Positions 3,759-33,176 of a stretch of DNA of 33,176 bases are shown one piece after another; the stretch's first letter is position 1, and every line of letters begins with the position of its first letter. Made by a program: the position numbers and the translations under genes. The notes beneath the pieces are model-generated. The model searched no databases. It was not told the origin of the DNA and saw only the letters and a list, made by a program, of their open reading frames with translations. This DNA comes from an uncultured Opitutaceae bacterium (GTDB lineage Bacteria; Verrucomicrobiota; Verrucomicrobiia; Opitutales; Opitutaceae), in contig CALDFV010000210.1 of the NCBI GenBank assembly GCA_937942145.1, forward strand, positions 1-33,176, read 5' to 3'.

Positions 3759-5468
3759 TTACAGTATTTCAAGAGCCATCAGCGTCTTGTCGTCTTGAGC
3801 AGCCCCGCCTTGGGAATGAGCGTCGACGACGGAAAGGGCATTTCCGGGGACGGCTTCTATTCCCTCCTGCCAGATTTCAGGTAGTCTTTTCGAGAATCCG
3901 TTGATTCCTAGCATCTCTCCTGATTGGTTTTCTACCTCGTAGATACCGTCCGTTATGAAAACGATTCGGTCTTTGGCCCCCAGTTGGATCAATCGTTCAT
4001 CGTAGACATCATCGGGCTTGATGCCGAGCGGCACGCCTTCCGAACAGATCTCTTCTGGTTCACTTAATCCGTTTCTGGAAAGAAATGCGGGGCAATGCCC
4101 GGCACTCGCGAGCTTTAGCCGATAGTCATCATAGGAGTAATAGGCGACTTGGGCAGTGATGAACATGTTTAAGTGCCCGAGCTCATCATAGATTTGCTTG
4201 TTCGTTTGGGACAAAAGCCAACCCGGGGTTTCCGCCAAGTTTAGCCGCGAGCGGATCGCCGTTCTGAAAATGGTAGCTAGCAATGCTGCGGGAACGCCTT
4301 TTCCCATCACGTCGGCGATGACAAGAAGTAGTCCACGTCCTTTTATTTCAATGGCGTCTATGTAGTCACCGCCTACGGCTAAAGCCGTAACACATTTGCC
4401 AGTTAAACGAAAGTGTTCGTTGTTTGGAAATTTCGACGGTAGAAGAGACTGCTGGATTTCCGCTGCGATCTCGAGTTGTGTTTTTGAGCGAGCGTGCTCC
4501 TTCTTTTGATTAATGGTAGATGCGTTTTCGATTGCAATAGCTAGAAATCTAGAAATTGCACGCGCGAGTCTTGCAATCCTAGTCTCGAACTGAATCGCAT
4601 CCTGTTTCGGCATTTGTAAAGAGATTATACCTACGCATTCGTCTTGGTATGAAATTGGGACCAGTAGAGCACTTTCGGACACTGAATAGAGTGGATCCGA
4701 TCTAGCGAATTGGGTGCAGTCTACGATGATCTGTTCACGCTGGGTGCGGAGAGCTTGAACAATCGAGATAGAGCGGTTGCTTGTCAGCTCGAAGCGTTGC
4801 TCTTTGTGATCGAGTGGATTTATCAGGTGCCCCTGTTGCAAGACCCAGACTACGGCATGAGGAATGGTGAAGACAGATTGGAGTCTGGCGAGACTGCTTG
4901 AAACCGCCTCAGCTAGCCAGGGCTCGCGACTAAGATCTTCGGCGAATCCTTGCAGGGCATCAAGTTCGCTGTAGCTTTGACTGAGATCGTTTGTGGCGCT
5001 TTGCAGGGTTTCGTATAGCTCTTGCATCTTAGCGATAGGGCTTTGCGGACGATGCAAAGTTTTCACGAGAACCAACTTGTGCCCATACTGGGTTTTAGAG
5101 TGAACCGCGGAATCGAAAATCGAATCAATGAGAAAGCACCCTCGACCCGATTCACTCAGAGGGTCGTCTGGAAGCCTAGCGGTCTTTGGTAGATATTTAA
5201 AGGTTCCGGGGTCTTCGATTTCGATGATTAGTTGCTCCCCTTCCCATTGCCACATGACCTTGACCGACTTAGGGCGAAATCCTCGACAGCCATGTTCAAT
5301 CGCATTGTTTAACGCCTCGCAGAAACCTAGTTCGATGGCTGGCCAAATAGTGGTGTCGATCAAACGTAGTTCGCAGAATTCCTTAAGATGTTCTGCTACG
5401 CTGGATACGAAGCTCAATTCTCCCGGAACTTCGCAGTATGAAATGTTTTGGTGTTTCAGCTCCGCCAT
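3759..5468 (-). CDS. Fused anti-sigma-kinase-like HATPase, GAF and PP2C/SpoIIE serine phosphatase protein
   Basis: N-terminal RsbW-like HATPase (FCEALNNAIEHGC, DPLSESGRGCFLI), central GAF-like region, C-terminal SpoIIE domain (QQSLLPSKFP, GGDYIDAIEIKGRGLLLVIADVMGKGVPAALL, SAGHCPAFL). Confidence 0.9.
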   Translation of the reverse strand: MAELKHQNISYCEVPGELSFVSSVAEHLKEFCELRLIDTTIWPAIELGFCEALNNAIEHGCRGFRPKSVKVMWQWEGEQLIIEIEDPGTFKYLPKTARLPDDPLSESGRGCFLIDSIFDSAVHSKTQYGHKLVLVKTLHRPQSPIAKMQELYETLQSATNDLSQSYSELDALQGFAEDLSREPWLAEAVSSSLARLQSVFTIPHAVVWVLQQGHLINPLDHKEQRFELTSNRSISIVQALRTQREQIIVDCTQFARSDPLYSVSESALLVPISYQDECVGIISLQMPKQDAIQFETRIARLARAISRFLAIAIENASTINQKKEHARSKTQLEIAAEIQQSLLPSKFPNNEHFRLTGKCVTALAVGGDYIDAIEIKGRGLLLVIADVMGKGVPAALLATIFRTAIRSRLNLAETPGWLLSQTNKQIYDELGHLNMFITAQVAYYSYDDYRLKLASAGHCPAFLSRNGLSEPEEICSEGVPLGIKPDDVYDERLIQLGAKDRIVFITDGIYEVENQSGEMLGINGFSKRLPEIWQEGIEAVPGNALSVVDAHSQGGAAQDDKTLMALEIL

Positions 5469-5471
5469 GGG

Positions 5472-6650
5472 TCATACGGATCGCTTGAACGCGAGTCGCC
5501 AAAAATTGTTCCGAATAAGTTTGATGATGTTCTTGTCTCCGCCGAGAGCTTGATACGAAGCGTGCACCCACTCATTGGGATCGTCTGCACTATGGCAATC
5601 GTGGAGGTCGGACAACGAGAGAAAGCCAGGGGAAGCTTCCTTAAGCCTTTGTTCCAATTCCTGGTCCTCTTTGATTCTCCATTCGATAGGCCGGGGAAGA
5701 ATGCCGATCAAACGCATCCGTCCCTTGAACACTTCCTTTAGCCAATGCCAACGACGAGTGAGAAGGCACCCGTTGTTCCCTGTTTTAAGCGCAAGGGCGC
5801 CACCTTTTCCGTCATGAGCCTCAATTGTCGTCCAGTCAATTTGGGAAAGAGCAACGGCGGGAGCGGCGAGTGTAAAAAGCAGGATCGCGAAAAGACGCTC
5901 GATCAGGGGGGCTTTACGAATGCGGCTGCCCAGGTCGCTTAGAATGAAAGCGTCCGAAATATTTACGCGACAACCTCTTTTGATATCAATTAGCAGCCCA
6001 CCGTCGGCTGCGACCTGATCGAGTTCGGTGTTGCGTCCCACCATGGTCCCCGGGAGTATCACGGAATCTCGGACGATAGCATTGTCGTCGACTATGGTAT
6101 TTTCCCCGATGCAAGCGTTGGGTCCGATGACGGCTTGCGAGCCAATATCGCATTTACCTTGAATCCAAAATGGAGGCGTCAATTTGGCGCTCGGATGGAT
6201 TCGAGTTTGAGGGCCCACCCATCCTCTAGGACAAACGGATGTTTCGATGCGAAGCTCGTACTCCTCAATGTGTTTTACCCAATTCTTGTTTAGTTTTAGC
6301 CAATGTCGGAAAAGGTCGGAAGTTGTCGCGAGGCTTGTCTGGACTTTGTTTTCACGAGGCAGTCCAATAATGGGAATAGCGTCGTTCGGCGCTTTGTCAT
6401 CCGACTGTATAGGAATTACGGTTACGTTGCGTGACCAATAGGCTCCTCCATTTAGATAGTCTCTAACAACCGTCGGTCGATCAGAAACATATACCTTGAT
6501 ATTTTCGATATTCTCGTCAACGGCCCGATCCATCCAATGGGCGATAAATGGCTGGTTCCCAACCGGCCAGAGGCAAAAGGGTTGCGGGTTTTTCCAAAGA
6601 TCGTCCAGTTTCCCCCAATCTGGAATTAGTAGTTTCCATTTTTGCTTCAT
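5472..6650 (-). CDS. Degenerate nucleotidyltransferase-like/left-handed beta-helix protein with a sugar-transferase-like C-terminus
   Basis: Hexapeptide repeats (IHPSAKLTPPFWIQGKCDIGSQAVIGPNACIGENTIVDDNAIVRDSVILPGTMVG), then LIERLFAILLFTLAAPAVAL...VFKGRMRLIGILPRP...SPGFLSLSDL. Confidence 0.7.
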   Translation of the reverse strand: MKQKWKLLIPDWGKLDDLWKNPQPFCLWPVGNQPFIAHWMDRAVDENIENIKVYVSDRPTVVRDYLNGGAYWSRNVTVIPIQSDDKAPNDAIPIIGLPRENKVQTSLATTSDLFRHWLKLNKNWVKHIEEYELRIETSVCPRGWVGPQTRIHPSAKLTPPFWIQGKCDIGSQAVIGPNACIGENTIVDDNAIVRDSVILPGTMVGRNTELDQVAADGGLLIDIKRGCRVNISDAFILSDLGSRIRKAPLIERLFAILLFTLAAPAVALSQIDWTTIEAHDGKGGALALKTGNNGCLLTRRWHWLKEVFKGRMRLIGILPRPIEWRIKEDQELEQRLKEASPGFLSLSDLHDCHSADDPNEWVHASYQALGGDKNIIKLIRNNFWRLAFKRSV

Positions 6651-6668
6651 GTCTCGATAGGGAGTCGG

Positions 6669-7448
6669 CTAGTAAGCGCCTTTGCCGAGGAGTACGGCTG
6701 GAATGGTCAAAAAGAGTAGTTTGATATCGAGCCAGATGCTGCTAGATTGGATGTATTCGATGTCGAGCCGAACCTGGTTTTCAAAATCGAGATCCGTTCT
6801 TCCACCGACTTGCCAAAAACAGGTCAGACCCGGTTTCGCCAGAAGGCGTTTGCGCGCTTCCACAGTGTAGTCTGCTACCTCGGCTGAGACAACTGGACGA
6901 GGTCCCACGATCGACATATCGCCGAGAAACACGTTCCAGAACTGGGGCAGCTCATCGACCGAATGCTTTCGGATAAAACGCCCGATCCGCGTAATTCTTG
7001 GATCGCCTTTCAGTTTTATCTCAATGGTATCTCTTGCCTCTTGTTGTTCGATCATTAGCTGGGCCACCTTTTCGGCGTCCAGTACCATAGACCTGAATTT
7101 CCAGATCATGAATGACTGCCCTTTGAGTCCGATGCGTTGTTGAGTGAAGAACACCGGCCCTTTGTCTTCCAGTTTTATAAGCGCAGCCGTGATGCCGAAA
7201 ATGGGAGAAAGGGCGACGAGAGCGAAACCGGAAATCAGGATATCGAAAATCCGTTTGAGGGCGATTGTCGCTCCGATTACAAAAGCCCAAGTAGAGCGCT
7301 TCAGTTTAGCTCTCGTTGTGAGACCTACCTTGCCGGAGACGGTGGCAGCTTTGGCCCAATATTCGGCAAGCTCTGTGTCTGAGTCATTTGGGATTCTTTG
7401 CATTTTTGGCGAGTCTTCTTCGTAGATCGGCCAAAAACGTAGATTCAA
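6669..7448 (-). CDS. Bacterial sugar transferase (polyprenyl-phosphate phosphoglycosyltransferase, WbaP/WcaJ catalytic domain type); start may be at 7403
   Basis: KRIFDILISGFALVALSPI, IWKFRSMV, FIRKHSVDELPQFWNVFLGDMSIVGPRPVV, KPGLTCFWQVGGR. Confidence 0.93.
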   Translation of the reverse strand: MNLRFWPIYEEDSPKMQRIPNDSDTELAEYWAKAATVSGKVGLTTRAKLKRSTWAFVIGATIALKRIFDILISGFALVALSPIFGITAALIKLEDKGPVFFTQQRIGLKGQSFMIWKFRSMVLDAEKVAQLMIEQQEARDTIEIKLKGDPRITRIGRFIRKHSVDELPQFWNVFLGDMSIVGPRPVVSAEVADYTVEARKRLLAKPGLTCFWQVGGRTDLDFENQVRLDIEYIQSSSIWLDIKLLFLTIPAVLLGKGAY

Positions 7449-8067
7449 AAGCGGTATCTTCTTCTGAGTTCCAGATCAAATCAGCGTGTTGCAGGGAGGG
7501 TTCCACGTGCTCCTGGTGCATCGGAAGGGTTTGCTGGCTCCAACTCGCGCGAATTTGGTCCGCAGTATAGCCCCTGTCCTTAGTATCTCTTTTCAGTCTT
7601 CGCTTAAGGCGGGTCTCTGAATCTACATTGATGTAAAGTTTGAAATGCAGGAGGTTGCGTATCTCTGGCCAGCAAAGAACGAACAGTCCTTCCAATATGA
7701 TGAGCGGACTAGGGACGAGAATATTGCCAGAGAGCAGCCGACGATAGTTGATATAAGAATAGTCAGGTGCCTCCACCTCGATACCTTGGTTGAGACAATT
7801 GAGGTGGTGATGAAGCAGTGTGTGTTCGACCGCGTTAGGGTGGTCGAAATTGGTTTTCTTGGCCTGTTCTAGGTTAATGCCTGAGAGGTCACGGTAGTAC
7901 CAATCTTGTTCGATAACAGTCGATTCCTCGGGAAACGCAGATTGAATACGTCGGGCAAAACGTGACTTCCCAGAGCCACTGCCGCCTGAAATACCGATTA
8001 TGATAGGCGCTCTATACACTCTTTTTTCTCTTATTTTCTCTCGTAGTGATTCAAGGCGCGGGGCCAA
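7384..8067 (-). CDS. udk: Uridine kinase-like P-loop nucleoside kinase
   Basis: Walker A GISGGSGSGKSRFA, EQDWYYRDL, FDHPNAVEHTLL, PDYSYINYRR, IILEGLFVL. Confidence 0.85.
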   Translation of the reverse strand: MAPRLESLREKIREKRVYRAPIIIGISGGSGSGKSRFARRIQSAFPEESTVIEQDWYYRDLSGINLEQAKKTNFDHPNAVEHTLLHHHLNCLNQGIEVEAPDYSYINYRRLLSGNILVPSPLIILEGLFVLCWPEIRNLLHFKLYINVDSETRLKRRLKRDTKDRGYTADQIRASWSQQTLPMHQEHVEPSLQHADLIWNSEEDTAFESTFLADLRRRLAKNAKNPK

Positions 8068-8140
8068 AATGTCGTAGGAAAGAAGGAGTTGAGCTTACCA
8101 TTAGGGGGCGAGCAACGAACATTCCCAAATTCCTACAAAC

Positions 8141-8455
8141 ATGAGTACAGTAATTGATGGTCATCTGGACAACGGCATTTTGCGTGTCAAATTAGACGTA
8201 AATCGTTTGGATGCCTCTGCCTCTCGCGATTTCAAGAAGCAAGTCGACCTGATCTGGTCAAAAGACGTTACACAGGTTGAATTGGATTTCAAGCAGGTTG
8301 GTTTCATCGACAGTTCTGGAGTAGGGGCGTTGCTAGGAGTTTACAAGCGGCTCCCGAACGCAGATGGGCAGGTTCGCCTGACGAGTGTCCAAGGGCCGGT
8401 CCAATCTGTCATAGAGCTCCTGCGCTTGCATCGAATTTTCAAAATAGAAAATTGA
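8141..8455 (+). CDS. STAS-domain protein (anti-sigma factor antagonist family)
   Basis: VELDFKQVGFIDSSGVGALLGVYKRL...GPVQSVIELLRLHRIFKI: canonical STAS motif with the conserved serine. Confidence 0.92.
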   Translation: MSTVIDGHLDNGILRVKLDVNRLDASASRDFKKQVDLIWSKDVTQVELDFKQVGFIDSSGVGALLGVYKRLPNADGQVRLTSVQGPVQSVIELLRLHRIFKIEN

Positions 8456-8721
8456 GAAGGCGTAATCGCCGCTATTGGGCGGATGCTATCGCATTCACTT
8501 GATCGATGCGAGGCTTCAATTGGAGCCCGGTTTTTCCGTTGCATTCGCTCTTCCTTGAGAGGGTCTGCTCATTCTTAGCGAGCGATTTCAATTCTGGTTT
8601 CGAGTGGGAGAGTGCTCAGGGCGATTTTTGGAAAGGATTGGGTAAAAGTACCCAAAAGAGCTCTCGTTCAAGGCAGGGCTGCCGATAAGCTAAGTGGCTA
8701 AACTCATTATTGCTGCGTGCT

Positions 8722-11700
8722 ATGAATCCCACTGGCTTGTTCAAAGACATATTCCTCAAATCTCCCCATGCTCAGATTATTTCGAGTAATGGTCTCATCC
8801 AGATGGCGAATCGAGCGGCAGTAGAGCTATTGGTTCGCAGTTCAGATGTTCATTCTCTCACGGACACTCCGATGGAGGCCTACTTCAAAAATTGGGAGAA
8901 AGCGCTTCAGGAAAACGAAGGTTCCGCTTCGTTGACCTTGGCCTCGCCGACCGAAAAAGGCCCGCATGCGTGTGAAGCCATTGCGACGAAGATGGGAGAA
9001 GGGGAAGTTTTGTGGAATCTGCGTCCGATTGGATCTGGAATTGAATCAAGCGGCGCTGACCGGGAGTCGGCTCTTAAGGTGGCTCTTGATCGATCGACAG
9101 ACGGAATCGTCTGCTTATCGCAAGACCTATCTAGTGAAGATCAGGCATCAAATTGGCTTGTCCGTTTCGCTAATCGCGCTTCCCGCGAGCTTATTGGAAT
9201 CGAACGCTCAAATATTGTGGGCAGAGCATTAAGGGAAGTGTCTTCAGTTTACGACGTTCTCAAAATTGACGAGCTCATCTCGAATATTCAGAATACTCAC
9301 AAGCCGGCAAGTGAAGAGCTCGCATTTGAGGTACAAGGCGAGTTGAAAACGGTTGTTCTTTCGGCCCAGAAAACGGATCGTTCGGAGTACATTTTAGTTG
9401 TAGAAGACGTTACCAAGGCACGGCAGGTCGAGCAGGAGCTGGAAAGCAGTTCCAATGAGTTGGAGCGTTTGAGTGACCAAGTGCCTGGGGTCTACTTTCA
9501 TTTGAAGATTAACCAAGATGGTGATCCGTCCTTCCCGTTTATCAGCGAGAAGATTAAAGACCTTCTCGGAGTCGAAGCGCAAGATGTAATGAAGGATGCC
9601 TCTATCGCCATGGGGGCCGTATTCATCGAGGACTTGGAGCGGGTATATGAAAGCTTGGCAGTATCTTCGAAGAATCTTAATCCGCTCTATTTAGAATATC
9701 GAGTTAACGGTCCTAACGGAAAACAGAAATGGGTATCAACTAAAGCGATACCGGAAAAGCGTAGTGACGAGACGATTATATGGTACGGAATTTTTGAGGA
9801 CGTTACCTTGAGGAAAGAATCCGAAGAACGCCTTAGAATGGTATCTGCTGCCGTTGACGTCTCTAGCGACTTCATCCTGATGATGTCGACCGAAGGAAAC
9901 GGCATCTACCATAACAACTCCTTCACCAGCGTTCTCGGATATGACTCAGTCGACCAGTTGAACAATTCCGGTGGAGCAGTGGCTCTATTTGAAGATCAAG
10001 GCCTATTTGAGAAAATCCTCCAAGAGACTCAGGAATATGGTCACTGGCAGGGAGATGTGCAGATGGCTACGGAGTCAAGTCGAGTGCTTGATGTCTACTT
10101 TAGAACAGTTGCCGTGCGCGATGACAAAGGGCGGATTACCGCAATCGTTGCCACTGGTACTGACGTCACTCACAACAAACGGCGCCAGAATCTGTTGAAG
10201 CGATACAACTCCGTATTGAAAGCGCAATCCGAGGCATCGACCGATGGAATTCTGGTAGTAAACGAACGAGGTATCGTATCGAACTACAACAAGCGTTTTC
10301 ACGAAATCTGGTCGCTTTCTCCAAGTGTTATGGACGCGGGAGACCCTGCGAAAATCTGGGAGACCGCATCGGAACTGATGCCTGAACCTCAAGCGTTCTT
10401 GGATAAGGCGAATTCAATTTCTGCGAGTGAAACCGAGACAGTAAAAGATCTGCTCGAGTTGAACGACGGAAGAATTTTTGAGCAAGCTTCCTTCCCGATA
10501 TGCTCACCTTTAGGTGAATCGTATGGAAGGGTTTGGTTCTTTCATGAGATAACGGAGCAGAAGCGTTCTGAAGAGCAGCTAAGAGCCGCAATGCGGCAGG
10601 CAGAAGAGGCGAACGAGGCTAAGAGTTATTTTCTCGCTAACATGAGCCATGAAATTCGGACTCCGATGAATGGCATCATCGGTATGACCGGCTTGGTAAG
10701 CGATACGGACCTTGATCGCGAGCAGCGTGAATGCGTGGATACAATCCGTGCCAGTAGCGAGGCGTTGCTTGTCGTTATAAATGACATTCTAGACTTTTCG
10801 AAGATCGAATCCGGAAAACTCGAGATCGAGAGTACCCTCTTTGACCTTCGCGATTGTGTAGAGGAGGCAGTTGATACTCTCGCCTTACAGGCGACCGAAA
10901 AAGGTTTGGACATCGCATATGTGATCGACAAGTCGATGGAAACTACGCTGCTCGGAGACCCTACGCGTTTACGTCAAGTTGTGATGAACCTGATTGGCAA
11001 TGCGGTGAAGTTTACCGGGAAAGGGGGCGTTTGTGTTCGAGTTTCCCTTGTGGAGGAGAGCGATGATCGTTTGAAGGCCCAGTTCTCAATACGTGATACG
11101 GGAATTGGTATTCCTGCGGATCGAGTAGATACACTCTTCGATTCGTTTAGTCAGGTGGATGCCTCAACTACGAGAAAGTATGGTGGCACCGGTCTTGGTT
11201 TGTCGATCAGCAAGAACCTGGCCGAGTTGATGGGTGGATCTATGTGGGTGGAGAGCGCGATAGAGGAAGGGTCGACGTTCCACTTTACGGTTGAGTTCCG
11301 CAAATCTGCTATTGAATCGCTTCCTGCAGGAACGAAGACTGTGGGCGAATTTGAGGGAAAGAATGCTTTGATTGTTGAGCACAACGCATTCAGCCGAGAG
11401 TCCTTGAGGAGCCAGGTTGAACACCTTGGCCTAGAATCGATTGGTCTGGAGTCGTTGGCTGATCTTGAGAATCTTGAAGTTGAGTCTTCGAATCTGCTTC
11501 TGGCTTATGTGGAATCGGGTATCGATGGATTAGATACGAATGAATTAGTTGAAAGCGTTCGAAAAGGCTCAGGGAATTCGAATTTGCCCGTAGTGATATG
11601 CGGTCCATTGGGGAGTCTTCATGCTGGCAGCGGTGTGTCTGGCAAGGTGTTGTCTCAATTAAAGCCTTGTAAGCTTGCGAATACGAAACGCAATCTCATG

Positions 11701-27624: not shown

Positions 27625-28227
27625 TTAGTCTCGATAGAGATTCCGCGATTTGATGTAATGAAAGACCGGCTCTGGCAAGAAGTACTTCGGGAGATCACCC
27701 GATTTCGCTCGGTTTCGAATCTCAGTGGAGCTCGTTGGGATGCGTTCCATCTGCAAAGGATGGAGCTTTGTCAGACTCGAAACAACCTCTGGTAGGCTAG
27801 CTTGATCATCCCGTTCGAGATAGATGAATTCCACCTTTTGCGCTAAATCCTCAATATCTCTCCATCGGTCTAGCTGTTTCGCCTGATCTCCTCCGATTAT
27901 CCAGAAAAGCTTCGCCCCTGGATTCTGGCAGGCTACTCGTTCGGCGGTTTCTATCGAGTAGCTAATTCCACCCCGTTCAATCTCAACAGTTGAAACTTCA
28001 AAGGATGGGTTGTCCCCAATGGCGAGGCGGATCATCTCGACTCGGTCTTCGTCTGACGCCGCAGGAGAATTCACTTTGAGTGGAGATTGCGCTGCGGGAA
28101 TAAAGAGGACGCGATTCAGTCGAAATTGCTCGATCGCTTTTTTGGCAATTGACAAATGACCTGCGTGGATGGGGTCGAAGCTGCCTCCGAATAGCCCAAT
28201 CCGCAGGGTTTGGTCAGGCAAGCTCAT
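27625..28227 (-). CDS. nadD: Nicotinate-nucleotide adenylyltransferase
   Basis: IGLFGGSFDPIHAGHLSIAKKA, IPAAQSPLK, WIIGGDQAKQLDRW, PTSSTEIRNRAKSG. Confidence 0.96.
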   Translation of the reverse strand: MSLPDQTLRIGLFGGSFDPIHAGHLSIAKKAIEQFRLNRVLFIPAAQSPLKVNSPAASDEDRVEMIRLAIGDNPSFEVSTVEIERGGISYSIETAERVACQNPGAKLFWIIGGDQAKQLDRWRDIEDLAQKVEFIYLERDDQASLPEVVSSLTKLHPLQMERIPTSSTEIRNRAKSGDLPKYFLPEPVFHYIKSRNLYRD

Positions 28228-29284
28228 TTACAAAAGGAGAAAACATTCCCTCCAGCCTAGCCAAGGCGCGTTTCTCTCGTCGGGTGACTTGCTGGCGGGA
28301 AATGCCGGTCGCCCTCGCTATTCCCTGGAGCGTATCGACTACCTCCTTATTGAGAATACCAAATCTTAGAGCGATGACTTCGCGTTGTTTGGGAGAAAGT
28401 TGGGCCAGCGCCTTTTCTAGAATCTCGACTAAATCAGCTCTGGCCGCTGCCGCAATTGGAGACAGGATTTCCGATTCGAGTTCGATCGCCGTAGTGGATG
28501 ACATGTCACTCGAAAACTCTATGTGAGGTTGCTGAATGCAATTGAGAGCAAGGGTTAAGTTTTTCGTGTCGAGGCTGGGGTGGGATTCAGTCTTTTCCGA
28601 CCGCGAAACTTTGGAGATGAGGTTAACGGGTGCTGAAACAGGGATACTGTTCTTCATCAGGTAATTTCGGATACGCCTATTTGTCCATTGAAAGGCATAG
28701 CTTGCAAATGGCTTGTCGGGTTCAATCCGGTCGATCGCCTGCAGTAGACCCAAGGCTCCTTCCTGCTCGCAATCTTCTCTTCGATTGATGCTACGACAAA
28801 TTTCTTTAGCCGCCTGAATTGAAATGTACTCGTATTTCTGATACAAAATCGTTTGGGCGTTTTTGTAAGAGGGGTACCGTGAGGCCAATCTAAGTTCAAG
28901 TGCCCGCTTGAGATCTTGCCATTGGGTCAATGTAAGCTCTGCGCCCGCTCCAGGTTTATTAGAGAAACCCCAAGCTCTGGTTAGTGATAAAGCCGAGCTA
29001 CGTTTTAATCTGGGGAGTCGAATATCAAAGATGTTAACGACAACGTCTCGCTTGGATTCCAGAGGCAGCGAAAGCACCGCTTGTACAAAGCTGATCCCCT
29101 GCCTTTGCCCCGGCAAATCAAGTGCGTCGAGCGCAGATTGGATGCTATTTTGCCATTCGGGGACTCCCAGCGTCGCATCCAAAGCCCTTCGAAAGCGAGC
29201 TATGACGAGCGTTGCCGCCTGCTTAGCTTCTTCTGAAATCGTGCCGGTCTGCGTCAGCTGCCTGGAATTTTCAGTTTTGGACAT
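28214..29284 (-). CDS. RNA polymerase sigma-70 family factor, alternative/divergent
   Basis: Region 2-like EQEGALGLLQAIDRIEPDKPFASYAFQWTNRRIRNYL; region 4-like LSPKQREVIALRFGI...TLQGIARATGISRQQVTRREKRALARL. Start chosen at MSKTENS (29284); ORF extends to 29461. Confidence 0.85.
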   Translation of the reverse strand: MSKTENSRQLTQTGTISEEAKQAATLVIARFRRALDATLGVPEWQNSIQSALDALDLPGQRQGISFVQAVLSLPLESKRDVVVNIFDIRLPRLKRSSALSLTRAWGFSNKPGAGAELTLTQWQDLKRALELRLASRYPSYKNAQTILYQKYEYISIQAAKEICRSINRREDCEQEGALGLLQAIDRIEPDKPFASYAFQWTNRRIRNYLMKNSIPVSAPVNLISKVSRSEKTESHPSLDTKNLTLALNCIQQPHIEFSSDMSSTTAIELESEILSPIAAAARADLVEILEKALAQLSPKQREVIALRFGILNKEVVDTLQGIARATGISRQQVTRREKRALARLEGMFSPFVNELA

Positions 29285-29467
29285 CGTAGAAAGTCGGACA
29301 AATCTTGGCCCTAACTTAGAAGCTGCGGAACGAATCGCAAGTCTCGGTTTTCTATGAGTCTCAGGCGGTCTCTTTTGAACTTTGGGAACTGATATCGCCA
29401 GAAAGTTGATCTCAGACTTGTTTTCGCCAAAAAAACCTGCTGGCATGCGGACCAATCCCAATCCTGA

Positions 29468-29550
29468 GCCCAGGTGGCGGAATCGGTAGACGCAGCGGAC
29501 TTAAAATCCGTTGTCCGTAAGGACGTGCGGGTTCAAGTCCCGCCTCTAAT
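29468..29550 (+). tRNA. tRNA-Leu(UAA) body with a non-complementary 3' acceptor strand; probably disrupted at an integration site
   Basis: GCCCAGG TGGCGGAATCGGTAGACGC, anticodon arm GCGGA-CTTAAAA-TCCGT, variable arm GTCC-GTAA-GGAC, T arm GCGGG-TTCAAGT-CCCGC are intact; the 3' acceptor positions read CTCTAAT where CCTGGGC is expected. Confidence 0.85.
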
Positions 29551-29577
29551 TGAGTTGCTTGTTGTTAAATAGCAATG

Positions 29578-29674
29578 ATTTAGGTAAATTTTTTTACCAA
29601 TATTGAGATGACGGTTGTGCCGAGTTATTCCTATTTAGGTTGATTATTGACACTATTTAGAGTCAATTTAGAGT
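29578..29674 (+). promoter_or_regulatory. Four ATTTAG(G/A) repeats in helical phase plus a TTGACA -35-like box upstream of the integrase
   Basis: ATTTAGGT at 29578 and 29633, ATTTAGAGT at 29655 and 29666 (spacings 55, 22, 11 bp); TTGACA at 29647-29652. Confidence 0.45.
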
Positions 29675-29680
29675 ACATAC

Positions 29681-30847
29681 ATGGCACGACCGATCACCCT
29701 AAAACCCGTAAAGCGAGGTTCTTCCTGGGATGTAAGTCTTCCTCCGTCGTTAAGCCCGACTGGCAAGCGTAAGCGTAAATCCTTCCAGACAAAGGTGGAG
29801 GCGGACAAGTACAGCCAACAGCAACTACAGCAGTTCAGGAATGAGGGGCCGCATACTATTCGCTTCACTTCCAAGGAGGCTGTTGACGCCCGTGATGCGA
29901 TGAGAATATTGGACGAAGCAACGAAAGAGCTGACGGGCGTCGACAGGATAAGCCTCGCCAATGCAGCAAAGCATTTCGTCAATTTCTTGAAGGAAAGGCA
30001 GGCGGCCAAAACCTTCATCGAGGTTTGGGAGGCATCTCTTGAGTCCAGAGGTTTCGACACGTTTTCAATCAGACATAAAAATGATGTTCGTGGATTGAGC
30101 AGAAAATTCCTAGAGGTCTTTGGCAAATCTCTGATTCCCGACATCAGTCCCGATCAAATCGAGAGATTTCTGAACCGCACGTTCACACATAAGACTCAAT
30201 TCAATAAAGCCTACAGGGTGATTCACCCAGCATTTGTTTATGCAGTAAAAAGGGGTTACTTATCGGCGGACCCATTCGTAGGAATAAGCCAGAAGAAGGT
30301 TGCCAAGGGTAAGGTAAGCGTCGTCAGCATAGAGCAAGCGGAGAGGATCGCCAGTCTCTGTAGAGGCGACTTCGCCGACTGTATGCCTGCGATCATGATA
30401 ATGATGTTCGCAGGCGTGAGGCCGCTAGAGTGCGAGAGACTGGAATGGAGTGCCATCAAATTTGATTTGGATGAACCATGCATAAGAGTAACCAAAGAGG
30501 TTGCCAAAGGATCGTTAGAAACTGCCCGACCAAGAACCATTCCAATGGAAAACAACCTCATTTCGTGGCTGAATTTGATCCCGAAAGAGAAGAGGGAAGG
30601 TAAGGTTATCCCTCCCAATTGGACAAAGAGAAACACAGCCTTCAGGGCCGCTATTGGTTTTTCTGGGACTCAAGACCAAGACATCCTGCGGCACTCTTTT
30701 GCAAGCTACCATCTAGCCTACTATAACGACGAGAACAGTACTACAGCTTCACTGGGACATGGCTCCTCCAAGATGCTTTTCAAGCACTACGACGCAGCGG
30801 TTGAGCGAAAGCCAGCGCTGCGATTCTGGGGACTGTTTCCTGATTGA
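29681..30847 (+). CDS. Tyrosine-type site-specific recombinase (phage/ICE integrase)
   Basis: C-terminal catalytic motifs AGVRPLECERLEW, DILRHSFASYHLAYY, LGHGSSKMLFKHYD. Confidence 0.93.
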   Translation: MARPITLKPVKRGSSWDVSLPPSLSPTGKRKRKSFQTKVEADKYSQQQLQQFRNEGPHTIRFTSKEAVDARDAMRILDEATKELTGVDRISLANAAKHFVNFLKERQAAKTFIEVWEASLESRGFDTFSIRHKNDVRGLSRKFLEVFGKSLIPDISPDQIERFLNRTFTHKTQFNKAYRVIHPAFVYAVKRGYLSADPFVGISQKKVAKGKVSVVSIEQAERIASLCRGDFADCMPAIMIMMFAGVRPLECERLEWSAIKFDLDEPCIRVTKEVAKGSLETARPRTIPMENNLISWLNLIPKEKREGKVIPPNWTKRNTAFRAAIGFSGTQDQDILRHSFASYHLAYYNDENSTTASLGHGSSKMLFKHYDAAVERKPALRFWGLFPD

Positions 30848-30982
30848 GAGAGGACTCCAATGATAGAGGGAGTCGATCAGAAGGGAGTTCACTGTGCCTA
30901 GCGGAAGCACTTCAATACAGAAGAGGATTTAACCTTCCTGTATTGGCAAATAGTCCCCAAAGGAGTCACTGTTCCTGAGGTA

Positions 30983-31004
30983 TTTTAGATACATGTATCC
31001 AAAA
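30983..31004. promoter_or_regulatory. 22-bp near-perfect palindrome, candidate operator
   Basis: TTTTAGATACATGTATCCAAAA: 12-bp perfect core GATACATGTATC, one mismatched pair, then TTTT/AAAA flanks. Confidence 0.35.
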
Positions 31005-31599
31005 TAATCCGCCAACAGAATTGATTGGGCTGTTCAATTGAGAATTGAGAGAAAGATCGTTTAGCTTCCTCAACTTAACTCTGTTCGGGGGGGAGGATTT
31101 CAATGGAAGCAGAAGTCGTTAAAAGCCACCCTTATTTCTCTTTCGTCGGTGAAGCATAAGTAGTGAATAAATTAAAATAACTCCATCTTGTAACCCTTTG
31201 GTGAATTAGCACTAATCGGCTATATCAGAGCTTAATTGGCAGCAATTGCTCAGCTTTATAAATGATTAAGATTCTTCTATCAAAACTTATAACTAGGGCC
31301 GCGGGGTTTTCCCGCCGCTCGTTAATCCCGTGGACTCTGATTCTTTGCTATCACGTCATGGGAATAATAATACAGGGAAGGAGGGTAAGATGACTTAGTA
31401 CCATCCTCTGAATCAAGATAATAGTAATCGCCTGTAATTAAATAGGCGAAATTAACGCCCAGAAAGCGTGCCATGCGTTAGCTATGCCTACACGCAAAGG
31501 ATAAAGGCTATCAATACGATAAGCTTCTGGGATTTTCGTATCCAAAACTAATTAAAAATATACCAGATACCATGCGTGTCTCTAAATATATAAATATTA

Positions 31600-32670
31600 A
31601 TGTATAAACAAAAACACAAAGAAGCCCCTGCGATAACAGGGGCTACGAAAAACGAATACCGAGGTATCCTTAGTAAAGTAAGTACCAACGGTAACAATAG
31701 ATCAGCCCAGCGCAAGACTGAAATTCTGGAGGACTTCAAAAGCTCACCAGCAATACATGGCCAGCGCTGGTCAGACGCCCGGGAGTGGGCCGTTAAGCTA
31801 TATTGCGGAACGGACTTAAATCCGGATGAGATAGAGGAGCTACTGATCGAACACTACGGCCATGAAATGGCCAGGGAAATGCGGGGTCTTGTCAAAGATC
31901 TCCCCAATAAGTTCGAGAAACGTGACTATAGAGAGATGCGGCCGACTCGGGTTACTCCGATTTGCCCGAAGACGAAGCCGAAACTGATTGATCTTGGAAA
32001 CCTATTCCCGGATTCGGTTTCGGTTCCGGAGTCGGCGTTTTTAGAGAAGTCGGATTTCGAGCTAAACTGCGGCAGGGAGGACGCTCGATTACTGCTTTCT
32101 TGCTGCTTCAGGGAAGGAGATCTCATTGCTATCAAGACTAGCCACAAAAGTCCCTCTTTCGTGAAGTCGAGAGAGGAGTGGCTGGAGTATCTAATCGAAA
32201 ACCCAGTTCTCCAATCCGAAGAAGGTTCCTGGGTGTATGCGAATCCGATCAGTCCAGAAGTTCTTTATCGGCTTCCCAAGGACCGGCATATCAAAGCCTC
32301 TGACGTCCTAAAGCACAGGTTTATTGTCTTGGAGAATGACAACGTCAGCCTGCAAACTCAACTAAGCTTCGCTGGATATGTCCTCCCTTATCTTCAGGCG
32401 ATCGTCTTCTCAGGACGTAAGAGCTATCACTGTTGGCTAAGAGTTGATGCTGAGACGCCGGAGGACTATCGCAAGGCAGCGTCTAACATAAAATCGCTCG
32501 TTGGGGCTGGGTGCAGCAGATTCGGGAACTCCGGATATGATGTCTGCACTATTTGCTCGACTGCCCATCCACGTATGTGTGGGGCCGCGAGGGGTCTAGA
32601 GGAGCAGAGGCTTATCTTCTTGAGGAGTTCTCCAACTCCGGAACCCGTTTTTAGGAAGGAGGTGGCCTGA
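31600..32670 (+). CDS. Mobile-element replication protein, divergent archaeo-eukaryotic primase-like
   Basis: VLKHRFIVLENDNVSLQTQLSFAG...LQAIVFSGRKSYHCWLRVDA...GAARGLEEQRLIFL resembles the (E/D)xD, sxH and C-terminal motifs of AEP primases in mobile elements; overlaps the next gene start. Confidence 0.65.
   Translation: MYKQKHKEAPAITGATKNEYRGILSKVSTNGNNRSAQRKTEILEDFKSSPAIHGQRWSDAREWAVKLYCGTDLNPDEIEELLIEHYGHEMAREMRGLVKDLPNKFEKRDYREMRPTRVTPICPKTKPKLIDLGNLFPDSVSVPESAFLEKSDFELNCGREDARLLLSCCFREGDLIAIKTSHKSPSFVKSREEWLEYLIENPVLQSEEGSWVYANPISPEVLYRLPKDRHIKASDVLKHRFIVLENDNVSLQTQLSFAGYVLPYLQAIVFSGRKSYHCWLRVDAETPEDYRKAASNIKSLVGAGCSRFGNSGYDVCTICSTAHPRMCGAARGLEEQRLIFLRSSPTPEPVFRKEVA
31623..31644. terminator. 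Perfect hairpin at the start of the primase-like ORF; terminator-like when read on the minus strand
   Basis: AGCCCCTG-CGATAA-CAGGGGCT; on the minus strand it is followed by TCTTTGTGTTTTTGTTT. Confidence 0.4.
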
Positions 32671-33176
32671 TGAGCAACGATGTAGTCCGAAAGCTCGAAG
32701 CTAACGTAGTCGCCTTGCTCGTTTCTGAAATCCCTGGAACGGCAACCGAAACCGAATCGGAGAATCAGCTCGCGTTCCCCAAGGATGCGATCGGCGAGAA
32801 TCCCATCAGTCGCATGGCTCAAGAAGTAGCAAGGGTATACGGCGTTCCGCCACAGTTGCCATACATGCTGGGGTTGGCTGTGGTTTCCATCGCCATTCAA
32901 AGAGCGTTCCAGATCCTCGGGGCTTTCGATAGGCCGCGGTATGGCAACATCTTTTTGATGGGTATAGCCCGATCCGCTACCGGGAAATCCAATATTTTTA
33001 AGGATTTCATGGACCCGCTCTTGAAGCGACAAAGGAAGTTTGACGAGGATTTTCAGAAGGCGAAACGGAAAGACTCCGACGACATAGAAATCCTGCGCGA
33101 AGAGCGAAAGGATCTTATGGCCGCCATCCGCAAAAAGAAGAAGGAAGACTGGAGGAGCGATGATCCCGAATGGCGG
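32670..33176 (+). CDS. DUF3987-like P-loop protein (N-terminal part, truncated by window end)
   Basis: ATG overlaps upstream TGA (TGATG), RBS AAGGAGG at 32656-32662; NPISRMAQEVARVYGVPPQLPYMLGLAVVSIAIQ and GIARSATGKSNIFKDFMDPLL. Confidence 0.8.
   Translation, partial: MSNDVVRKLEANVVALLVSEIPGTATETESENQLAFPKDAIGENPISRMAQEVARVYGVPPQLPYMLGLAVVSIAIQRAFQILGAFDRPRYGNIFLMGIARSATGKSNIFKDFMDPLLKRQRKFDEDFQKAKRKDSDDIEILREERKDLMAAIRKKKKEDWRSDDPEWR

Follow-up and report, generated by a model that had tools for sequence, protein, structure and literature searches.

Introduction

Mobile elements that target tRNA genes follow a general rule, which is that they bring with them the remainder of the gene that they interrupt (PMC4383910). 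The fragment concerned is seldom the 5′ one: in the Islander collection, 5′ fragments are found in 159 of 3919 islands, about 4% (PMC4383910). The temperate phages that practice tRNA-dependent lysogeny depart from this rule (Guerrero-Bustamante and Hatfull, 2024; PMC10865867). Their tyrosine integrases recombine at a core of 8–17 bp within a tRNA gene that is not reconstructed, and a phage-encoded tRNA of the same isotype keeps the lysogen alive. Relatives of these phages that do reconstruct the gene have cores of 33–52 bp, although the integrases of the reconstructing and nonreconstructing phages are closely related; the secondary integration sites described in the same study are nonessential protein genes (PMC10865867). 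Examples include the actinobacteriophages Fionnbharth, LeBron, and Gaia, among others, and the phenomenon has so far been proven mainly in actinobacterial phages; its frequency beyond them was raised as a question by the authors (PMC10865867). They mention the Lactobacillus prophage Lj965 as a possible case outside the actinobacteriophages, and a study of Sinorhizobium describes a similar replacement of tRNA genes (PMC11476347, PMC12429752).

Here we analyze contig C210 in its entirety (33,176 bp, referred to below as the window), which belongs to a draft genome (G000) of 320 contigs that is 88% complete. It contains a tRNA-Leu(UAA) gene that breaks off beside an integrase gene. We regard it as fairly probable that the gene was split by a nonrestoring insertion and that its loss is made good by a tRNA carried on the element, in the manner of tRNA-dependent lysogeny.

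Results

A tRNA-Leu(UAA) Gene Is Broken after the T Arm

Positions 29468–29544 of the window (plus strand) are 100% identical to nt 1–77 of the intact tRNA-Leu(UAA) genes of G005 and G010, the two nearest relatives of G000 and members of the same genus; judged by sequence comparison, perfect identity over 77 nt is beyond chance. What remains is the acceptor 5′ strand and the D, anticodon, variable, and T arms; the gene lacks its 3′ acceptor strand and the CCA. After the T arm, the CTGGGCACCA of the relatives is replaced by TCTAATTGAG in the window, which from 29545 departs from all relatives compared. Rfam RF00005 gives a partial match to this region (model positions 7–64 of 71, 40.2 bits), and ARAGORN called no tRNA gene there. 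A preliminary description of this DNA had reported a tRNA-Leu(UAA) gene without a matching 3′ acceptor strand, in which 5′ GCCCAGG faces CTCTAAT, and our comparison confirms both statements.

The DNA to the left is host DNA. It carries a σ70-like gene (28214–29461, minus strand; Pfam Sigma70_r2 and r4) and is 93.8% identical to G010 as far as 29367. The flank is matched in 13 of 57 genomes (G000 counted), and a divergent σ70-like gene stands beside tRNA-Leu(UAA) in related genomes as well (for example, G001 and G029), and is a usual neighbor of this tRNA in the genus.

The Displaced 3′ End Lies on a Second Contig

When we searched G000 with the DNA that lies downstream of the tRNA gene in G010, we found contig C132. 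Read on its minus strand, C132 opens with 83 bp of unassigned origin that end in GTGCGAT, and continues with TTCAAGTCCCGCC, then CTGGGCACCA, and then the native right flank. The tRNA tail on this contig, TTCAAGTCCCGCCCTGGGCACCA, comprises the 23 exact 3′ nt of the gene. The right flank is 88% identical to G005 over 1988 bp, starting within the tRNA tail, and 91% identical to G010 over 1973 bp. In G005 the site is empty, with an intact tRNA-Leu(UAA) gene, the same flank directly behind it, and no element; in G010 the flank lies 5.5 kb past the intact tRNA gene, behind another insertion. The native left side of the G000 locus thus ends in tRNA nt 1–77 on C210, and its native right side starts with the 3′ tail on C132. 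The preliminary description had predicted a displaced tRNA-Leu 3′ end downstream of position 33176. Such an end exists, together with about 2 kb of native right flank, but C210 stops at 33176 and the fragment sits on C132. A relative that lacked the integrase and carried the same CTCTAAT acceptor would have spoken against an integration junction; G005, which was compared as the empty site, has a normal acceptor.

The longest string common to the two junctions (attL on C210 and attR on C132, both assigned from sequence) is the 13 bp TTCAAGTCCCGCC, which is preceded by GG in the former and AT in the latter. In the window it occupies 29532–29544 (plus strand) and covers the T loop, the 3′ strand of the T stem, and the start of the acceptor, and it would be the region of strand exchange. 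A shared sequence in the T arm had been proposed before, and its location holds but its length does not: the 16 bp GGGTTCAAGTCCCGCC cannot be the exact core because the displaced copy reads GCGATTTCAAG. Around the core, attP and the tRNA gene match imperfectly, at 18 of 20 bp. An overlap of just 13 bp leaves both junctions without a functional tRNA. If C132 represents attR, and hence the other end of the same element, then the core length of 13 bp stands and the tRNA is rebuilt at neither junction, with attL lacking the acceptor strand and CCA and attR consisting of a 23 nt tail. A crossover in the T arm and a failure to restore the gene at integration, both suggested by the preliminary description, are consistent with the two junctions.

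We infer that the junctions on C210 and C132 derive from one event. The fragmentation of the assembly into 320 contigs raises the prospect that one of them is a chimera within a metagenome bin. We consider this extremely improbable, as the same 13 bp form the breakpoint in two independent contigs, whose host flanks are adjacent in G005; in addition, assembly k-mers are usually much longer than this core, and the integrase gene is in the expected place. The 83 bp on C132 contain no good match to the arm-type motifs described below, and hence supply no tie to the integrase, and the end of C132 has no continuation among the other contigs of G000. An inverted repeat, CCCAGGG(22 nt)CCCTGGG, spans the attR core (L036, minus strand) from a point to the left of it; the pairing of element-side sequence with the displaced acceptor strand is probably due to chance.

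The same 83 bp bear on an alternative history, in which integration did restore the tRNA and the acceptor strand disappeared only later, through a deletion or a further insertion at nt 77. C132 to the left of the core faintly resembles tRNA nt 38–62, as would a decayed copy of a displaced 3′ half. The similarity to the tRNA beyond the core is not significant, however (p = 0.04–0.18 in anchored comparisons and 0.65 in a local one), and the 23 nt immediately to the right are perfectly kept; so abrupt an edge suits a recombination core better than decay. We give little credence to such a history.

The Inserted DNA Encodes an Integrase and Putative Replication Proteins

The element is visible for 3.6 kb (29545–33176) on the C210 side and for the 83 bp of C132 on the other. 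The 136 bp (29545–29680, plus strand) between the core and the integrase gene, which diverge from all relatives at 29545, would constitute the right arm of attP. Within them, three (A/T)ATTTAG(A/G)GT-like motifs at 29632, 29654, and 29665 are possible arm-type integrase sites. A near-perfect palindrome, GGTAAATTTTTTTACC, lies between the broken tRNA and int at 29583–29598; it may serve as a terminator, bind a protein, or belong to the arm.

The first gene (29681–30847, plus strand) encodes a phage-type tyrosine integrase of 388 aa (PHROG phrog_1 integrase, E = 1.5e-28), in which an alignment shows R247, K276, R337, H360, and Y370 to be conserved; its match to Pfam Phage_integrase (E = 3.7e-4) is under the curated cut-off. 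It is followed on the same strand by a primase-like gene (31600–32670; PHROG phrog_2597 DNA primase, E = 1.9e-8, residues 205–339; no Pfam match) and by a DUF3987/phage DNA helicase gene (32670–33176; PF13148, E = 4.6e-12; phrog_2373 DNA helicase, E = 1.9e-11) that is cut by the contig end and whose continuation is absent from every other contig of G000. The visible 3.6 kb contain no structural phage genes. The attL and attP strings had no match in viral contigs, and viral contigs, plasmids, and family-level genomes contained no close relative of the integrase. No copy of the element was present in the relatives scanned, and no near relative in the collections searched.

Combining the two junctions gives a predicted attP, GTGCGAT-TTCAAGTCCCGCC-TCTAATTGAG, that has no acceptor strand on either side; the circular form of the element would read GTGCGATTTCAAGTCCCGCCTCTAATTGAG, and its far end would be expected to read ...GTGCGATTTCAAGTCCCGCC. 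The preliminary description had attributed the broken gene to a noncognate attP. In an extended version of that idea, the usual target of the element is another tRNA gene, tRNA-Leu(UAA) was struck through its T-arm match, and the cell has another source of tRNA-Leu(UAA). We consider this improbable. A short and imperfect match (18 of 20 bp) that lacks the acceptor strand is what a noncognate site would look like, but the attP T arm (GCGAT/CCCGC) would pair badly within a tRNA and is therefore unlike a copy of another tRNA gene. Furthermore, published secondary sites are in nonessential protein genes (PMC10865867), and single-contig relatives have no second tRNA-Leu(UAA). The noncognate nature of attP is conjectural: phages with tRNA-dependent lysogeny ordinarily have an attP with a short core that does not reconstruct the tRNA (PMC10865867).

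Relatives of the Integrase Adjoin Ordinary tRNA 3′ Halves

Four integrases from the same order (in G056, G304, G422, and G473) are 34–37% identical to that of the window, and each adjoins a tRNA 3′ half that starts in the anticodon region and ends with CCA. A perfect repeat of 52 bp in G304 restores a tRNA-Thr gene, which is intact there. The nearest named relative is the integrase of Akkermansia phage Chantilly (ON453895; 32% identity over 99% of the query). The likeness lies in the integrase; the difference is that the first 45 bp at the int end of the Chantilly record are a tRNA 3′ half (T arm plus acceptor), and so, on their sequence, appear to be an ordinary restoring attP. No complete tRNA was present in the 21 kb of Chantilly examined. 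The attachment sites of the relatives thus lie around the anticodon loop and include a complete 3′ half, and that of G000 has a T-loop core, by which the locus departs from its own integrase group; this contrast counts against our preferred explanation. The 5′-fragment arrangement occurs in none of these four, the order-level relatives for which an attachment fragment was found.

Other Elements at the Same tRNA Gene Restore It

In two genomes of the same genus, G007 and G009, exact repeats of 47 and 57 bp, respectively, that end at the anticodon loop show that a 5′ part of tRNA-Leu(UAA) has been displaced, and an intact gene lies 8.6 kb (G007) or 11.8 kb (G009) beyond it. The copies are at 9100 and 17747 of L083 (G007:C1:22001-42000) and at 4144 and 15989 of L085 (G009:C28, minus strand), and the repeats cover the 5′ flank plus tRNA nt 1–39, to the end of the anticodon loop. 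Apparent integrase remnants are found just upstream of the intact tRNA in both elements, and homologous end sequence follows the broken half in both. The G009 element contains a filamentous-phage-type replication protein gene (L085 12235–13361; REP_ORF2-G2P, E = 2e-11) beside a small open reading frame that may encode a single-stranded DNA-binding protein.

These elements gave us our initial idea: a 5′ copy carried by the window element would restore the tRNA at the far end of that element. In that scheme, attP brings a promoter together with a tRNA-Leu(UAA) 5′ part, the intact gene stands at the end distal to the integrase, the window has just the displaced 5′ fragment, and C132 marks a second, older element of the 3′ type. 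That it operates at the same tRNA in the same genus counts against our preferred explanation, and islands with 5′ fragments do exist (PMC4383910). Once C132 had been found it became our second choice, and we now think it unlikely, although less so than any of the other alternatives considered here. Two separate insertions are needed to account for C132, and a second full-length copy of the 77 nt is needed, of which there is none in the 88%-complete assembly. Such islands are also rare (PMC4383910), and the integrase relatives described above do not share the arrangement.

In G010, an intact tRNA-Leu(UAA) gene is followed by about 5.5 kb, a displaced CTGGGCACCA tail, and native flank (L082, G010:C1:682001-702000, 5597–11209). 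The genes in the insert are sulfatase-, Na/Pi symporter-, and hydrolase-like, and its layout marks it as an apparent remnant of a restoring 3′-type element. The sequence TGATAATCAATGACTTA follows the tRNA-Leu(UAA) gene of G010; it also follows a tRNA-Arg(CCT) gene beside an integrase in G007 (L109).

The Cell Is Expected to Need a Substitute tRNA

The number of intact tRNA-Leu(UAA) genes, which the preliminary description had proposed to count, proved to be zero in the G000 assembly. Completeness is 88%, however, and the tRNA genes for Ala, Asn, Cys, and His are missing as well, which makes the absence weak evidence; an intact copy may sit in the missing part. In G010 and G007, relatives assembled as single contigs, the full tRNA-Leu(UAA) gene occurs once. 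Two copies that appeared to be present in G002 were rejected, being one locus on overlapping contig ends. Contig C189 of G000, in which CCTGGGCACCA is present twice, was likewise rejected as a copy, as its gene is tRNA-Leu(CAG) (L025, 1501–1585). Two extra copies of the 3′ tail of that gene, CCCCCTGGGCACC, lie at about 1740 and 2025, within 0.5 kb, with related spacers between the repeated tails and a transposase-like reading frame nearby.

In the window, nine host genes (nadD and dfp among them) contain 45 UUA codons; the total for ten genes is 49, of which the 4 in the σ70-like gene are unreliable because it was read out of frame. The leucine tRNAs found in G000 include those with CAA and CAG anticodons, which should not decode UUA. 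By these decoding rules, tRNA-Leu(UAA) would be essential. Since host genes contain UUA codons and the gene is present just once in complete relatives, a substitute tRNA-Leu(UAA) would be required for viability.

Discussion

In the explanation that we prefer, the tyrosine integrase recombined a short attP core with the T arm of the host tRNA-Leu(UAA) gene and so inserted an element that is either a phage or a phage-like entity bearing genes for a primase and a helicase. As attP would share only TTCAAGTCCCGCC with the tRNA and bring no acceptor strand, the integrase-side junction would keep nt 1–77 and the C132 junction only the 3′ tail, leaving the host gene split and dead. By analogy with the published phages, the element itself most likely provides the substitute, from a tRNA-Leu(UAA) gene in its unassembled portion, and would be essential for as long as it remained integrated. 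The more specific proposal, that the element holds the only working tRNA-Leu(UAA) of the cell and so represents a tRNA-dependent system outside the actinobacteria, with a T-arm core and within a restoring integrase group, seems to us evenly balanced.

If the element does supply the missing tRNA, its integration amounts to addiction, and it could be lost only through exact excision. The locus would then be a specific case for the question of tRNA dependence outside actinobacteriophages. Because both junctions are available, together with a sister species in which the site is empty and integrase relatives that restore their targets, the change from a restoring to a nonrestoring attP can be studied. 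Island finders that require an intact tRNA plus a fragment (the logic of Islander) will overlook such elements.

Among known systems, the 5′-fragment islands of G007 and G009 resemble this locus in having a broken 5′ part on the host-left side; they differ in that an intact tRNA lies within 8.6–11.8 kb, whereas here there is a lone 3′ tail with native right flank. The 3′-fragment islands of Islander share the tRNA target, the displaced 3′ fragment with CCA, and the tyrosine integrase beside the junction, but they restore the tRNA with a whole 3′ end. The standard mark of such an island is an intact tRNA at one junction, and here C210 has no 3′ end or acceptor strand and C132 has only the tail.

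The resemblance to tRNA-dependent lysogeny is closer. The element encodes a tyrosine integrase, 136 bp from the core; attB is in a single-copy tRNA gene, whose essentiality here follows from decoding rules; and related integrases reconstruct their tRNA. If C132 is the other end of the element, the 13 bp core falls within the published range of 8–17 bp, and neither junction has a functional tRNA. The published phages carry a tRNA of the same isotype, the defining second half of the system, and none is seen in the 3.6 kb plus 83 bp of assembled element. Further differences are that the core lies in the T arm of tRNA-Leu(UAA), that the host, to judge by the integrase relatives, is not an actinobacterium, and that the element is a putative phage at most. 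The locus is thus a candidate member of the tRNA-dependent lysogeny class, and would work in the same way.
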